Below are positions 12,189 to 19,005 of a stretch of 64,000 bases of DNA, in pieces. The DNA is from Treponema sp. (GTDB lineage: Bacteria > Spirochaetota > Spirochaetia > Treponematales > Treponemataceae). The translations under genes were made by a program, and so were the position numbers. How positions within the stretch are numbered: the first letter of the stretch is position 1; each line of letters begins with the position of its first letter. The stretch spans positions 1 through 64,000 of the forward strand of contig JAEEVR010000012.1 in NCBI GenBank assembly GCA_016290995.1. Reading direction: 5' to 3'. The notes beneath the pieces were generated by a model. It was not told the origin of the DNA and did not search any database. It saw only the letters and a list, made by a program, of their open reading frames with translations.

Positions 12189-12641
12189 ATGGACACGCTG
12201 ACAAAAGAGCAACGGCATTTTGTAATGTCCCAAATTAAAAGCAGCGACACCAAGCCTGAGCTTTTGGTCCGTTCCTACTTGCACAGACTGGGCTTTAGGT
12301 TCAGGAAAAACGACAAGCGCTTGACTGGAAAGCCCGACCTTTATTTTCCGCGCTACTACGCGGTGATTTTTGTCAACGGCTGTTTTTGGCACGGCCACCG
12401 TTCCTGCCGCAAAGTAAGAATTCCAAAGAGCAACACGGAGTATTGGACGCAAAAAATCGAGCGCAACAAAGAGCGCGACAAGGAAGAAGTCAAAAGCCTT
12501 TTGGAGCAAGGCCACAGAGTCGGCGTTGTTTGGGAATGTTCGATTACCGGAAAGAACCGCGCTCAAAAAATACAAGCCCTCTCCGAAAGCGTAGCGCTTT
12601 GGCTGGAAGAGGGCTTTGACCAAAACTACAAAGAATTCTAA
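12189..12641 (+). CDS. vsr: Very-short-patch-repair (Vsr) endonuclease
   Basis: SQIKSSDTKPELLVRSYLHRLGFRFR...LTGKPDLYFPRYYAVIFVNGCFWHGH. Confidence 0.93.
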   Translation: MDTLTKEQRHFVMSQIKSSDTKPELLVRSYLHRLGFRFRKNDKRLTGKPDLYFPRYYAVIFVNGCFWHGHRSCRKVRIPKSNTEYWTQKIERNKERDKEEVKSLLEQGHRVGVVWECSITGKNRAQKIQALSESVALWLEEGFDQNYKEF

Positions 12642-13837
12642 AGGCCCTTTGCCCAAATGTAAGTGCTAAGGTAGGGGTCCGGCTTGATCGCGCTTGGGCT
12701 TTCCCAAACTTCGTCAATCAAGCCTTTTGAATTTATGCGGCCAATGCGGACTCGTTTTTGCAAGTGTTGGTTTTCGCCGTCGATTTTTACGATTCCTTCG
12801 GGCGCGTCGTAGCTTAAGCCTTTGGCGGCGATTCTGACTTTTTCGGTGTCAAAGGAGCCGGCTTTTTCGCAAGCCAAGGCCCACAGTTGGACGGCGATAT
12901 ATGCCGCCTCCATCGGGTCTCCGATAATTTTGTCTTGTCCGTACAACTCCTTGTAGCGCTGGACAAAAGTTTTGTTTTGGAACGACGCGATGGTTTGGAA
13001 GTAACACCATGTTGCCAGATGGCCTTCGACAAACTGGGGGCCGATGTAAAGCGCCTCTCTTTCTGAAACGGAAAAGCTCATTACAGGAATGTCTTTGGGC
13101 GTCACGCCGGCCTCCCGGAGCTGGATAAAAAAGGCTTTGTTGGACGCGCCGTTGATTGTGTTGATTATGACGTCTGGCTTTTTGGCGACTATGTCTTGAA
13201 TTACGTCCCTAAAATTGTCGGCGTCAAGCGGCTTGTATTCCTCTCCGACTACAACGCCCCCCAAATAATTCAAGTGCGCCTTTGCGATTTTGTTTGCCGT
13301 TCGCGGAAAGATGTAGTCCGAGCCGACTAAGTACATGCGTTTTCCAAAATTGTCAAAGCAGAATTCAACGCCTGGAGCGACTTGCTGGTTTGGCGCGCTG
13401 CCTGTGTACATTATGTTTGGGCTTGCTTCCATTCCTTCATATTGCAAGGGGTACCAAAGCAAGCCGTAAATGTCGGGCGACTCGACGACGTTGAGGACTT
13501 CTTTTCTTGAAGCGGATGTCCAGCAGCCGAAAATTGTCGCGACCTTGTCTTCCTCGAACATCTTTCTCGCTTGTTTTTTAAACACGGCTGGATCGCTTTG
13601 GCCGTCAAGCTGAACGATTTGGATTTGCTTTCCAAGTACGCCGCCCCTTGCGTTTATTTCGCTAATCGCCATTTTCTCCGCGTTGGCCAAGCCTTCTTCG
13701 CTTTTTGCCATCGCTCCTGTCAGCGAATGCAAGATTCCCACTTTTACGACGTTTTGATTTTTTTTGTTTGAGCAAGCCGCCGTTAATGCAACTAAAATGC
13801 TTGCGGCCGCAAGTGCCAAGAATTTACTGGCTTTCAT
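12638..13837 (-). CDS. UrtA/AmiC-like branched-chain amino acid/urea-type substrate-binding lipoprotein
   Basis: Lipobox LTAACSNKK; VVKVGILHSLTGAMAKSEEGLANAEKMAISEINARGGVLGKQIQ...; 4-bp overlap with upstream cyclase gene. Confidence 0.85.
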   Translation of the reverse strand: MKASKFLALAAASILVALTAACSNKKNQNVVKVGILHSLTGAMAKSEEGLANAEKMAISEINARGGVLGKQIQIVQLDGQSDPAVFKKQARKMFEEDKVATIFGCWTSASRKEVLNVVESPDIYGLLWYPLQYEGMEASPNIMYTGSAPNQQVAPGVEFCFDNFGKRMYLVGSDYIFPRTANKIAKAHLNYLGGVVVGEEYKPLDADNFRDVIQDIVAKKPDVIINTINGASNKAFFIQLREAGVTPKDIPVMSFSVSEREALYIGPQFVEGHLATWCYFQTIASFQNKTFVQRYKELYGQDKIIGDPMEAAYIAVQLWALACEKAGSFDTEKVRIAAKGLSYDAPEGIVKIDGENQHLQKRVRIGRINSKGLIDEVWESPSAIKPDPYLSTYIWAKGL

Positions 13838-16800
13838 TTTGTTCCTCCCGGCAGAATGTCGTAAGTTGTCATAATGCCTTTGCCTTTAATGTCGCATTCA
13901 ATCGGTTCGCTAAAGTTAAAGTTCGACATGCCCTTGATTCTTTCGTAAACCGCTTCTGAAATTTTTATTTCGCCGGGCGTCGCCGCGCTTTCCATGCGGC
14001 TTGCGACATTGACTGTGTTTCCCCAAACGTCGTAGATGAATTTTGTCTTTCCGATGACGCCGGCGTTGGCGGGGCCTGAGTTCAAGCCGATTCTGATGTT
14101 GAATTTTATCATCGCCTTTTCGTTGTAGGCCGCCAAGTCTTCCATCATTCCAAGCGCGAACTTTACCATTATTTCGGCATGGCGTTCGTTGGGTTCCGGC
14201 AAGCCGCAGCCGGCCATGTAAGCGTCTCCGATTGTCTTGATTTTTTCAACGCCCATGTTTTTGGCGCGTTCGTCAAAGCGGCTGAACAAGTCGTTGAGCG
14301 CGAAGGCGATTTCTTCCGCCGTGTGCTCGCTTGAAGTCTTTGTGAAGTTTTGGATGTCGGAGAACAAAATCGTCACGTCAGAGAAGTTTTCGCCGATTGA
14401 GTGAATGTTGTCGCGCAATTCGTTGGCAATCTTGTGCGGCAAAATGGCGTGCAGCAATTGGTCTGATTTTTCTTTCTCGATTTCCAACTGCTTTGTGCGC
14501 TTTTTCACCAAGTTTTCCAAGCGAAGGTTTTCTAGCTTGATTCGCCTTTGCTTTAAGTAAAAAATTGTCACGATCGTTCCAAAGAAAGCGATTGTGGCCA
14601 AAACCCAAAACCATTTTGTTTGGTAAAAGTAGGGCTTTTGGACAAAGAGCATTGTCTCGGCTTTTGGAGAAATCAAGCCCTCGCCGTTAATCGCGTTGAC
14701 CATGAATGTGTGGCGGCCAGGCTTTAAGTTGGTGTATGAAATCGTCCTTATTGAGCTTGCTTCCGAAAAATCGTCTTCAAAGCCGGTCAGCCTGTGCGTG
14801 AATTTTATTTTTTCAGGAGCGTTAAAGCTAAGGCCCGTGTATTTGATTTCGACGCGCTTTGTTCCCGGCTTTAGCTCGATAAAGTTGGTCGGCTGCTTTT
14901 GTTCCACAGAGTCAATTTTTATGGTTTCGATGCAGACCAATGGAAGGACTGGATTTGCGCGAACTTTTTGCGGGTCGTAAATCGCAAAGCCGTCAACGGT
15001 CGCAAACCACAAGCGGCCAAGGCGGTCGCACATGCTCAATGAAGTTGACGTTGGACCGTCAGAATCAAAGCCTTCGTTTTTGTTGTAATACTTGATCGCG
15101 ATTTTTCCTCTTGTTCCTTCCGCCGCCGCGACAAAGTCCTCAAAGGGAGCGCATGCGATTCCGTAATTGCTGGTTATCCAAGCCTGGTTCATTTTGTCAA
15201 AGAAAATTTGGAAGACGGAATCCGTTTCCAAGCCGTTGACTGAATTCACTGTTTGGAATTTTGTTGGCAGGCGCTGCTGGGAACTGTCGTACGACGGGCA
15301 GCGGGCAAGCCCTGTTCCTGTGCTGATCCAATAAGAGCCCTGCTTGTCTTGGCAAATCTTGAATATGATGTTTCCCGGCAAGCCGTGCTCGGATGTTTGC
15401 CGGCCAAGAATCGTTTCGTCTTTCATGTAGTAAACGCCGCCGCCGTCGGTTCCGATCCAGAACAAGTCGTTCTTGTCCTTGTAAATGCACATGACGTATT
15501 CGTTTGTGAGTCCGTTGACTTGGCGGAAATTTTTTATGCTTCCGTCCCGGTGAATCACGCTAAGGCCATTTGTCGTTCCAACGTATATTTCGCCGGGCTG
15601 GCTTTCTATCGCGACGCGGATTTTGTTTCCCGCAAGTCCGTCGTCCGTAGACCAGGTTTTTATTTGGCCGGAGCGGACGTTGTACCTGATGAGTCCCGGC
15701 TTTGAATAGCAACAGGCCAGGATGTCTCCGTTTGAGACGATTTCTACGTGGCGGACGCGAATCTCTTTTGTAAAATCCGTAAGGCGGTTGTAAAACGGCT
15801 TTCCGTTTTTGTATGCAAGAACTCCTTCGTCGGTCGCAAGCCAAACTGTTCCGTCGCGCCCTTCGGCAATGGCGTTTGTTGTGTTTGAGCTTTTTACCAT
15901 TTTAAAGCGGCCTTGCGTCAGTTTTCCGACTCCGTTCCTGTCTGTCGAAATCCAAATGTTTCCTTCGCGGTCGCAAATTATTTTATTGATTTTGGCGCCT
16001 TCTATTCCCTTTATGCGGCATTCATAGAATTTTCCGCCGCTATATGCGACAAGGCCTTCGTTCGTTCCAAACCAAATGTTTCCGTCGGGAGCGGGGTAAA
16101 TCGTTCCTGTGGCCGTGTAGTCCAAAAAGGTTCCTGTCAAAACTCGCGTGGCCTTACCGTTCTTTATTTGGTAGATGCCCTTTGTTCCAAGCGCTATCCA
16201 ATAGTTTCCTTGCTTGTCTTGCGTTATCGCCGTTGCTGTGTATTCTTCGAAAGAGTTCATAAAGGGAACGGATCGGAAAAGTCCGTTGATGAAAATGAAA
16301 AGTCCTTTTTCGTTTTCTGTCGTAAGCCAAACACAGCCCGCGGTGTCGCAGTAAAGGCTTGTGCAAAGAATTCCCTTCGCAACCGTTCCCGGCTCAAACT
16401 GCGGATTTATTAAATGCTTTTCGTGGGTCAAGCAAACAACGCCAGCCGACGTTCCAACCCAAATGTTTTGCTTTTTGTCCTCGACAATCGCGCGGACTGA
16501 ATTGTTCGGAAGGCCGTTTTGCGTTGTGAAGGACAAGTTGTTTCCGTCGTGGGAAAGCATTTGCAAGCCTTCGTCGTTTGAGCAAACCCAAGTGTTTCCG
16601 TCAATGTCCTGCAAGAGCGCCCTGGCCGAAGCGAACGTTATGTTGTTGTCTTTTCCCCGCCTCAGCGTGGTGAATTCCAAGCCGTCAAAGCGGACAAGGC
16701 CTTCGTAAGTTCCGATATTGATAAAGCCGTCGCGAGTCTGTATTACGTCGGTGGCGGTGGTTCCTTTAAGCCCGCCAAAGGAATTCCACGATTGGTAGAC

Positions 16801-16884
16801 ATAATTGTCAAAAAATGAGTCTTCCGCAAAAGAAGCGCCCGCAAGAACAAGGCCCGCGAGAATGAACGAAAACGATCTTTTCAT
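13834..16884 (-). CDS. Periplasmic two-component-regulator-type propeller + Y_Y_Y domain + TM + class III adenylate cyclase
   Basis: Repeated (I/V)W(I/V)(G/A/S)T-type propeller blades; TM WFWVLATIAFFGTIVTIFYL; cyclase VTILFSDIQNFT, KIKTIGDAYMA, YDVWGNTVNVASRMES. Confidence 0.88.
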   Translation of the reverse strand: MKRSFSFILAGLVLAGASFAEDSFFDNYVYQSWNSFGGLKGTTATDVIQTRDGFINIGTYEGLVRFDGLEFTTLRRGKDNNITFASARALLQDIDGNTWVCSNDEGLQMLSHDGNNLSFTTQNGLPNNSVRAIVEDKKQNIWVGTSAGVVCLTHEKHLINPQFEPGTVAKGILCTSLYCDTAGCVWLTTENEKGLFIFINGLFRSVPFMNSFEEYTATAITQDKQGNYWIALGTKGIYQIKNGKATRVLTGTFLDYTATGTIYPAPDGNIWFGTNEGLVAYSGGKFYECRIKGIEGAKINKIICDREGNIWISTDRNGVGKLTQGRFKMVKSSNTTNAIAEGRDGTVWLATDEGVLAYKNGKPFYNRLTDFTKEIRVRHVEIVSNGDILACCYSKPGLIRYNVRSGQIKTWSTDDGLAGNKIRVAIESQPGEIYVGTTNGLSVIHRDGSIKNFRQVNGLTNEYVMCIYKDKNDLFWIGTDGGGVYYMKDETILGRQTSEHGLPGNIIFKICQDKQGSYWISTGTGLARCPSYDSSQQRLPTKFQTVNSVNGLETDSVFQIFFDKMNQAWITSNYGIACAPFEDFVAAAEGTRGKIAIKYYNKNEGFDSDGPTSTSLSMCDRLGRLWFATVDGFAIYDPQKVRANPVLPLVCIETIKIDSVEQKQPTNFIELKPGTKRVEIKYTGLSFNAPEKIKFTHRLTGFEDDFSEASSIRTISYTNLKPGRHTFMVNAINGEGLISPKAETMLFVQKPYFYQTKWFWVLATIAFFGTIVTIFYLKQRRIKLENLRLENLVKKRTKQLEIEKEKSDQLLHAILPHKIANELRDNIHSIGENFSDVTILFSDIQNFTKTSSEHTAEEIAFALNDLFSRFDERAKNMGVEKIKTIGDAYMAGCGLPEPNERHAEIMVKFALGMMEDLAAYNEKAMIKFNIRIGLNSGPANAGVIGKTKFIYDVWGNTVNVASRMESAATPGEIKISEAVYERIKGMSNFNFSEPIECDIKGKGIMTTYDILPGGTK

Positions 16885-16891
16885 GCCGTAT

Positions 16892-16920
16892 ATTGTAAAC
16901 CCAAAAGGCGAAATTTGCAA
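16892..16920 (-). promoter_or_regulatory. Promoter of propeller-cyclase gene, predicted leaderless
   Basis: TTGCAA (16920-16915)-N17-TACAAT (16897-16892)-7 nt-ATG 16884. Confidence 0.65.
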
Positions 16921-16975
16921 TAATTCAGCGATTCAGCCGTCTAAAGGCCGCCGCTTACAAGTGCGTTGGCTCCGC

Positions 16976-17614
16976 TTAAAAGCCCCGCCTGTTTGCCGCC
17001 GCGCGCCTTGTCGTCTCGGCCTTTTGAAGCATCGCTAGCAATAGCGCTTGAAGTTCCCGCAAAAAAAACGCGGCCGCCCTTATTGGATTTTTCCTTGCCT
17101 TTGCGCTTGTTCTTGCGCGCGCCGCAAGCTTTATCTTTTCCCATTCGCTAAAAATTTGCGGAATGAAATTTATCGCCAGCGTTACAAAAAGAGGCAGTCG
17201 CAGCGCTTCTTGGATTTGGACCATCGTCGTCGTTTCAAAAACGCATTGCGCTGCAAGCGCGCTTGTCAAAAAGCGAACGCTGTACAAAAGCGCGTAAGAA
17301 GCGCCGTCAACCCAAGATGCGGCGGGCGATCCGACGATTTTTAGCGCGGCGACCATAAGGCCAAGAATTAGGACAAAGCGCAGGTCCGCGAGGCTTTTCC
17401 AATTGGCGCCCGACAAAAAAAACAGCGCGGCGCTCGCCGCAAAACAAAGAGCCGTTCGCGCGATTGTCTGGCCGCTAAAAATTTCCTTTGCGCTTTCGGG
17501 CGTCTTTCCCCAAAAGACAAAGACGCTAAAGGCGAGCAGAAAAATTATTTTAAGGCCGGCGTTCGTCCTGTGCAAAAAAGACGCGCCGCGCCGGTATGAG
17601 AACAAGGCCGCTAC
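16976..17614 (-). CDS. bioN: ECF transporter transmembrane subunit (EcfT/BioN-like)
   Basis: FLHRTNAGLKIIFLLAFSVFVF; ARTSAKARKNP-type coupling helix; next to bioM/bioY. Confidence 0.8.
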   Translation of the reverse strand, partial: VAALFSYRRGASFLHRTNAGLKIIFLLAFSVFVFWGKTPESAKEIFSGQTIARTALCFAASAALFFLSGANWKSLADLRFVLILGLMVAALKIVGSPAASWVDGASYALLYSVRFLTSALAAQCVFETTTMVQIQEALRLPLFVTLAINFIPQIFSEWEKIKLAARARTSAKARKNPIRAAAFFLRELQALLLAMLQKAETTRRAAANRRGF

Positions 17615-18363
17615 CATTGCAAGTCCTCTAGCGTTTTGTAGGAGTTGAGCGGATTTTTTATTCCGCATTCTTCAAGCGGAAATTTAAGGCCGTCGGCAGG
17701 GCTTCCGTCAAAGCGAATCTTTCCCTTGTCCAAAACTATCATGCGGTTTGCCAAAGCCAAAACTTTTTCTATCTCGTGGGTCAAAACGATGACGGTCTTC
17801 TTTTGCTCTTTTAGGCTTCGCATTATAAAAGTCGTTTGCTTTACGCCAGGCCAGTCAAGGTTTGCGAAGGGCTCGTCAAAGATTATAAGCTTGCGGCCCA
17901 GTGCCAAAATTCCGGCCACGGCAAGGCGGCGCTTTTCTCCGCCGCTTAAAGTCCGCGCGTTAAAATCTTTTTTTTCAAAAAGGCCGACTTTTTCCAAGGC
18001 TTCGCGACAAAGCGCCGCCGCCTGCGTTTTGGCCAGGCCCAAGCCCTTCGCGCCGAACATAACGTCTTCGTACGGCGTTTCTCCAAGGATTTGCGCGTCG
18101 GCGTCTTGAAAGACAAGGCCCGCTTCAAAGCCTTTTTGGATTTGAACATTGCCGCTTGTAGGCTCGTCAAGTCCGGCAATCAACGACATCAAGACGCTTT
18201 TTCCGCTTCCGTTGGAACCGGCCAGGACAATGAAGTCGCCTTGGCTTGCGCAAAAAGAAACGCCGTCAAGCGCTTTTGTTCCGTCGGAAAAAACGCGGGT
18301 TAAGTTTTTTACCTCTAAAATTTTTCGCTCGCCATCAGATGTTTGCGCCGCTTCTAAATCCAT
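17611..18363 (-). CDS. bioM: ECF transporter ATPase (BioM/EcfA-like)
   Basis: Walker A GSNGSGKS, LSGGEKRRLAVAGILALGRKLIIFDEPFANLD. Confidence 0.87.
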   Translation of the reverse strand: MDLEAAQTSDGERKILEVKNLTRVFSDGTKALDGVSFCASQGDFIVLAGSNGSGKSVLMSLIAGLDEPTSGNVQIQKGFEAGLVFQDADAQILGETPYEDVMFGAKGLGLAKTQAAALCREALEKVGLFEKKDFNARTLSGGEKRRLAVAGILALGRKLIIFDEPFANLDWPGVKQTTFIMRSLKEQKKTVIVLTHEIEKVLALANRMIVLDKGKIRFDGSPADGLKFPLEECGIKNPLNSYKTLEDLQW

Positions 18364-18375
18364 CTGGCTGGCCGC

Positions 18376-19005
18376 CTAATTTGTGTAGGCCAAAATCGTC
18401 GGCCTGAATTTCTTTGTCAATAAAACCATAAGGACAAGCTTTATAAGGTTGCCCGGAATGAAGGGGAGAACGTAAAGCGGCAAGGCTTTTTCTAGCGGCA
18501 AATGCATTACGATGATTCCGCCGGCGACTCCGCACGCGAACGCTGTGATTGTCGCAACGAGCGCGGCCAAGGTTATTATTGCGATGCGCGCGATGTTTAT
18601 CGAGCGGCTTTTTTTTGCCTGCGGCTCAGGGCTGGCCTCGTCATGGCCGCTTTTATCCGCGGCGTCTTTTTGCGTCAATTCAAAGAGCGCGAGAATCGTT
18701 CCGCCAATGACAGCCGCAAAAAAGTAGCCCCACAAAAAACCGCTTGTCGGCCCCGCCAGCAAAACATGAAGGCCAGCCTTTCCTGTAAAAACCGGAATGC
18801 CTATCGCTCCCAAAAGCAAAAAGAGCAGGACGGCAAGGCCTCCAAAAACTGGCCCCAGCAAAAGGCCGCTTAGCATCGCCATCATGTCTTGGATTACAAT
18901 CGGAACTCCGCCCGGAAGCGGAATTTGGATAAAGCAGCCCGCGCAAATGAGAGCGGCGAACAAGGCGCTGAGCGTGAGCTTTTTTTGAACTTTAACGCTT
19001 TTCAT
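18376..19005 (-). CDS. bioY: Biotin transporter S component BioY
   Basis: LTLSALFAALICAGCFIQIPLPGGVPIVIQDMMAMLSGLLLGPVFGGLAVLLFLLLGAIGIPVF. Confidence 0.93.
   Translation of the reverse strand: MKSVKVQKKLTLSALFAALICAGCFIQIPLPGGVPIVIQDMMAMLSGLLLGPVFGGLAVLLFLLLGAIGIPVFTGKAGLHVLLAGPTSGFLWGYFFAAVIGGTILALFELTQKDAADKSGHDEASPEPQAKKSRSINIARIAIITLAALVATITAFACGVAGGIIVMHLPLEKALPLYVLPFIPGNLIKLVLMVLLTKKFRPTILAYTN

Follow-up and report, generated by a model that had tools for sequence, protein, structure and literature searches.

What does a binding lipoprotein of the UrtA family do when its gene lies directly behind that of a receptor adenylate cyclase? The question is raised by a locus in a 64,000-nucleotide stretch of a Treponema contig, which we refer to as the window. 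A preliminary description of this DNA proposed that the two genes form a nutrient-sensing module, in which the lipoprotein presents an amide, urea or an amino acid to the cyclase without the participation of a transporter. Our comparison of sequences across the genus, the order and the phylum makes it probable that the two genes encode a dedicated co-receptor for urea, or a very similar amide, that would drive cAMP synthesis. Both reading frames lie exactly where that description had placed them (Table 1).

Table 1. Features of the cyclase–lipoprotein locus and its immediate neighbours in the window
Feature	Position	Strand	Details
vsr endonuclease, convergent neighbour outside the module	12189..12641	+	TIGR00632
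UrtA-family (Peripla_BP_5) binding lipoprotein, proposed urea co-receptor	12638..13837	-	399 aa; lipobox LTAAC (Cys22)
ATGA stop/start overlap and GGGAGGA ribosome site	13834..13855	-	CCGGGAGGAACAAAATGA
Receptor adenylate cyclase	13834..16884	-	1016 aa; PF07494, PF07495, PF00211
Weak sigma-70-like promoter match just 5' of the cyclase gene	16892..16920	-	not above chance
Biotin ECF transporter (EcfT-like, EcfA-like, BioY), neighbour outside the module	16976..19005	-	PF02361, PF02632

The ATG start codon of the lipoprotein gene and the TGA stop codon of the cyclase gene share the letters ATGA, an overlap noted earlier and read directly in the sequence, where the junction runs ...CCGGGAGGAACAAAATGAAAGC. 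The ribosome site of the lipoprotein gene is strong and falls within the 3' end of the cyclase coding sequence. This arrangement suggests that translation of the two genes is coupled in the window's clade only; the 4-bp overlap is hardly found outside it, and the spacing elsewhere ranges from -11 to +117 bp. The promoter scan returned 3 promoter-like sites against 3.0 expected, which is no excess, and the terminator scan was only about 1 standard deviation above chance.

Downstream, the vsr stop overlaps the stop of the lipoprotein gene, and a C5 methylase lies beyond vsr. Directly upstream on the strand of the pair are genes for an EcfT-like transmembrane protein (16976-17668), an ECF-type ATPase (17611-18363) and BioY (18376-19005), followed by a BirA-like ORF. 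The ECF neighbours scored below the cut-offs of TIGR04521 and TIGR04520; by their sequences, the three proteins are a biotin ECF transporter and not a Urt/Liv transporter. The vsr and biotin neighbours were thus correctly described, whereas the statement that no permease or ATPase gene lies nearby fails literally, given the ECF T protein and ATPase, and holds for Urt/Liv transport genes. The biotin ECF genes are not conserved beside the pair in relatives. In the close relative UBA4377, whose cyclase and lipoprotein are both 99% identical to those of the window, a BioB-like radical SAM gene (L013:3920-4897(+)) lies between EcfT and the cyclase; this gene is absent from the matching interval of the window (16885-16976).

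The lipoprotein scored 486 bits against PF13433 (Peripla_BP_5) and 487.7 bits against the UrtA model TIGR03407, 5 bits short of the 492.75 cut-off of that model. Its top PDB match by sequence, 8tg1, carries no more specific name than extracellular ligand-binding receptor. The named relatives are the UrtA structures 7s6e, 8hic and 7s6f, with AmiC more distant. In the structure of UrtA from P. marinus with urea (8HIC), the pocket is lined by nine residues: W120, S122, Y141, Q144, E146, Y190, F192, N246 and S274 (PMC10392092). The window lipoprotein retains all nine (W106, S108, Y129, Q132, E134, Y175, F177, N229 and S256), and each is invariant in an alignment of 39 lipoproteins encoded beside a cyclase. 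The median pairwise identity of these 39 proteins is 64%, and 97 of 372 mature columns are invariant; that all nine pocket positions should be among them has a hypergeometric P of 4e-6. A pocket conserved in this way is what any protein that still binds its ligand should show. The lipoprotein-type cysteine was recognised by a strict motif in 36 of the 39 and by eye in the other three. Read from the alignment, AmiC has Tyr, Pro, Tyr, Val and Thr at the positions of W106, Q132, F177, N229 and S256. A pocket that resembles that of UrtA and differs from that of AmiC makes urea a likelier ligand than those of the AmiC type, and it narrows the broader ligand list proposed earlier to its urea part.

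Three positions outside the pocket set (A80, V234 and K238 in window numbering) are invariant in the 16 transporter UrtA proteins compared and have drifted in the paired lipoproteins. This drift is compatible with a lost permease contact, although it is no proof of one. Residues specific to the lipoprotein group were too weak as hints of an interface to claim. Treponema also contains further UrtA-like binding proteins (L079-L085), mostly accompanied by urtBCDE-like genes, in which the pocket is altered. W120 and N246 are lost, Q144 is mostly lost, and the proteins probably take different substrates.

The cyclase is composed of a signal peptide, a periplasmic Reg_prop propeller, a Y_Y_Y domain, one transmembrane (TM) helix, a coiled coil and a class III cyclase domain, in that order, with the signal peptide and TM helix read from the sequence. 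A kinase domain is absent, and a Guanylate_cyc domain stands in its place. The catalytic residues (D843, D887, K883, D952, N959 and R963) comprise two metal-binding Asp, a Lys/Asp ATP pair and an Asn/Arg transition-state pair. None of them varies among the 38 paired orthologues and the 14 unpaired relatives compared. Because these residues are of the ATP type, cAMP is the expected product. An AlphaFold2 model of the cyclase from seven close relatives was of low confidence (mean pLDDT 55.6, pTM 0.38). The window's genome encodes five proteins with seven cyclic-nucleotide-binding domains (L138, L139, L140, L141 and L142:1372-2742(-)), which are candidate cAMP effectors; one joins an RsbW-like ATPase domain to cNMP_binding, and Pfam places a Crp-type DNA-binding domain in none of the five. 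A 595-residue protein (L018:3019-4806(-)) combines a MatE transporter with an RsbW-like HATPase_c_2 domain. The window's genome also encodes a second propeller adenylate cyclase on contig C38 (L131:4229-7276(-), G000:C38) that is 41% identical to the first and has no binding-protein gene beside it.

Across the order, UrtA-like substrate-binding proteins (SBPs) were detected in 44 of 294 genomes at E<=1e-40. At the inspected loci their genes occur in two main contexts, either directly downstream of this cyclase or followed by urtBCDE; close relatives of the lipoprotein that have no such cyclase partner nearly all adjoin urtBCDE. Within a set of 200 congeneric genomes we defined cyclase orthologues by an identity of at least 53% (n=108). 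The lipoprotein gene lies directly downstream of 99 of these 108 by coordinates, and two more were added on inspection (G647, at a contig end, and G652, with a shortened lipoprotein ORF), which brings the count to 101 of 104 judgeable orthologues; four that lie at a contig end by coordinates are outside the 104. The remaining three orthologues come from genomes (G657, G668 and G159) that are devoid of close lipoprotein relatives. Among cyclases of the genus list that fall below 53% identity, including 12 at 45-48%, none has a lipoprotein neighbour. Thirty-two lipoprotein genes lie away from the listed cyclases. Those inspected adjoin urtBC genes or contig-end fragments of cyclases, apart from one (G590:C27) that lies too near a contig start to judge. 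The flanks of the pair are scrambled: the upstream genes of 37 loci belong to 29 families, and the downstream genes of 36 loci to 24. The pairing is far beyond chance. The module proposed in the preliminary description, which would have lost its footing had the pairing not been conserved, is in this respect supported by co-occurrence across the genus.

In the tree, the 39 paired lipoproteins form one clade (support 100/99) whose sister comprises nine Treponema UrtA proteins from urtABCDE operons, and the paired cyclases likewise group together. The simplest interpretation is that a urtA-like gene was recruited once. The cyclases of G657 and G668 fall within the paired clade, which implies at least two later losses of the lipoprotein; that of G159 is basal and its history ambiguous. 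The cyclase can therefore persist, and have a role, without the lipoprotein. Lipoprotein-less cyclases are altered at 8 sites, compared with a control mean of 1.1 and maximum of 4, a signal that is too weak given their longer branches. A UrtA-like protein from a contig labelled Mitsuokella (L020:7980-9209(+)) falls among the Treponema UrtA proteins, by transfer or mislabelling.

We surveyed transporters and urease in 36 paired genomes from the order sample. Neither true UrtB nor urease is present in 28. Eight carry true UrtB, with scores of at least 387 bits against TIGR03409 (cut-off 250), and eight have both urtBCDE and urease. Urease is present in the same eight paired genomes and in three genomes that have UrtB without the pair. 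One paired genome carries a divergent UrtB just above the TIGR03409 cut-off, beside its own divergent SBP. Eleven paired genomes that are 95-99% complete (G020, G076, G095, G110, G129, G135, G139, G145, G193, G199 and G252) yielded no UrtB/LivH-like match at E<=1e-10 with a protein query; against the permease HMM they stayed below 50 bits, compared with more than 130 bits for Liv-type permeases. The window's genome, which is 89% complete so that absence is less certain, gave no urease match and no true UrtB. It does have Liv-type permeases. Several Treponema urea transporters contain UrtB and UrtC as one fused ORF of about 650-700 residues, often adjoining urease accessory genes (G131:C55, G137:C74, G163:C62, G178:C26, G250:C29 and G266:C38, corresponding to L107, L063, L110, L109, L108 and L066; also L161, L162 and L165).

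These data bear on a rival view, in which the lipoprotein works as a conventional transport SBP for a Urt or Liv permease encoded at another locus and is placed next to the cyclase merely so that the two are co-regulated. In favor of this explanation are the close relationship of the lipoprotein to UrtA, the presence of Liv-type permeases in the window's genome and the eight paired genomes that also encode urtBCDE and urease. Where urtBCDE is present, however, it has its own urtA from the other clade, and the two Liv-type permeases that we read in the window's genome both have their own SBP genes. As a general explanation, transport is ruled out by the 11 near-complete paired genomes without a candidate permease, and we regard it as improbable overall. 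The same genomes speak for the earlier view of a two-gene receptor module free of a transporter, and they answer the concern that homologues might always be accompanied by a full ABC transporter elsewhere. Still less credible is the notion that cyclase and lipoprotein are functionally unlinked neighbours held together by translational coupling or chance. Adjacency is not always functional, as an adjacent SBP/kinase gene pair is reported in which no interaction was seen (PMC11113362). Here, however, the pair is kept genus-wide despite scrambled flanks and was never formed with related cyclases, which leaves this explanation with very little probability.

A greater share of our doubt, though still a minor one, concerns the ligand. 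A receptor module for another small amide, such as formamide, acetamide or a carbamate-like compound, would fit the absence of urease from most paired genomes, and UrtA-type transport systems, which may take other small amides, are found beside amidases (PMC3098086). Against this stand the invariant urea pocket, the five positions at which AmiC departs from it and the loss of W, N and mostly Q in the divergent Treponema UrtA-like proteins, so that a ligand other than urea appears unlikely. The lipoprotein might instead be a subunit that supports or anchors the cyclase and has no ligand role, with the propeller sensing something else directly. Bacteroides propeller sensor kinases function without an SBP, and the persistence of the cyclase in three genomes that lack the lipoprotein is in keeping with such a role. 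A completely conserved ligand pocket would be needless for a mere anchor, however, and we give the anchoring role only slightly more credence than transport.

We thus favor the urea co-receptor, which would operate as follows. The lipoprotein would be a UrtA duplicate released from its role in transport. In the periplasm it would bind and close on urea or a closely similar small amide, and the loaded protein would dock on the propeller/Y_Y_Y ectodomain of the cyclase. The signal would then cross the single TM helix and coiled coil to the class III cyclase domain in the cytoplasm, alter its dimerisation or activity and thereby change cAMP. In this scheme we infer the identity of the ligand, the contact between lipoprotein and propeller, activation, the direction of the cAMP response and the effectors. 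Because most paired species have neither urease nor UrtBCDE, urea is probably a cue of host or habitat rather than a nutrient; the sensing role assigned earlier is retained, and its nutritional character is doubtful. Whether gut and rumen treponemes use the pair as a dedicated urea receptor of the periplasm that signals through cAMP, with urea reporting on host or habitat and adenylate cyclase joining the SBP-driven receptors, seems to us an evenly balanced proposition. Such a receptor would mean that spirochaetes of the gut may keep watch on urea that they do not consume.

The pair shares features with several known systems. The lipoprotein has the fold family and nine pocket residues of UrtA of the UrtABCDE transporter (TIGR03407; 8HIC, PMC10392092) and Treponema UrtA as its nearest clade; it differs in having no urtBCDE beside it, in forming its own clade and in being paired with a cyclase. 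The lipoprotein also resembles AmiC of the Pseudomonas AmiC/AmiR system, in which a UrtA-like fold serves sensing and not transport. AmiC is cytoplasmic and controls an antiterminator; its pocket differs at five of nine positions, and no linked amiR or amidase is among the neighbour genes identified at our locus. In LuxP/LuxQ, an SBP activates a transmembrane receptor. The treponemal pair has in common with such systems a transporter-free binding-protein gene beside a transmembrane receptor gene. It combines an exported SBP with an extracytoplasmic receptor domain (signal peptide, propeller and one TM helix), and the gene linked to that of the SBP is the receptor gene rather than one for a matching transporter. 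The general mechanism of SBP-activated receptors is described in PMC9602780 and PMC11113362. The classes listed are chemoreceptors, sensor kinases, diguanylate cyclases/phosphodiesterases and Ser/Thr kinases, and adenylate cyclases are absent from the list (PMC9602780). SBP-triggered receptors are thus already known, whereas a propeller ectodomain sets the treponemal pair apart and an adenylate cyclase output appears to be new. Our search, largely confined to open papers, found nothing on this pairing, on propeller cyclases or on urea-sensing SBPs.

Hybrid two-component sensors (PDB 4a2l, 3v9f and 3ott by sequence) place the same periplasmic Reg_prop and Y_Y_Y domains before the membrane; their output is a kinase rather than a class III cyclase, and in the treponemal system a separate binding protein is co-encoded. 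Animal natriuretic peptide receptor guanylate cyclases (PDB 9bcv by sequence) also join a periplasmic-binding-like fold to a class III cyclase. They do so in one polypeptide that has a hormone ligand and produces cGMP, whereas the pair consists of two genes with a propeller and ATP-type residues, so that the likeness is an analogy only. The pair offers a clean system for how binding proteins talk to receptors, and for this receptor family it yields urea as a predicted ligand and cAMP as a predicted output. It would represent a transporter binding protein that, after a single duplication, was retained as a probable sensor in about half a genus.

A survey of 393 genomes of the phylum suggests that urea sensing through second messengers may be more general, in that UrtA-like domains have been recruited to GGDEF and GGDEF-EAL proteins. 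Two UrtA-like proteins stand out. In G319 (L145:5216-7396(+)), a protein of 726 residues with no evident signal peptide joins the UrtA-like domain to PAS and GGDEF. In G403 (L146:2169-7153(-)), the gene for a TM-anchored UrtA-like protein overlaps a HAMP-PAS-GGDEF-EAL gene, and no UrtB/LivH-like permease was found in that genome. Both proteins keep all nine pocket residues and provide independent support for the UrtA-like domain as a sensory module.
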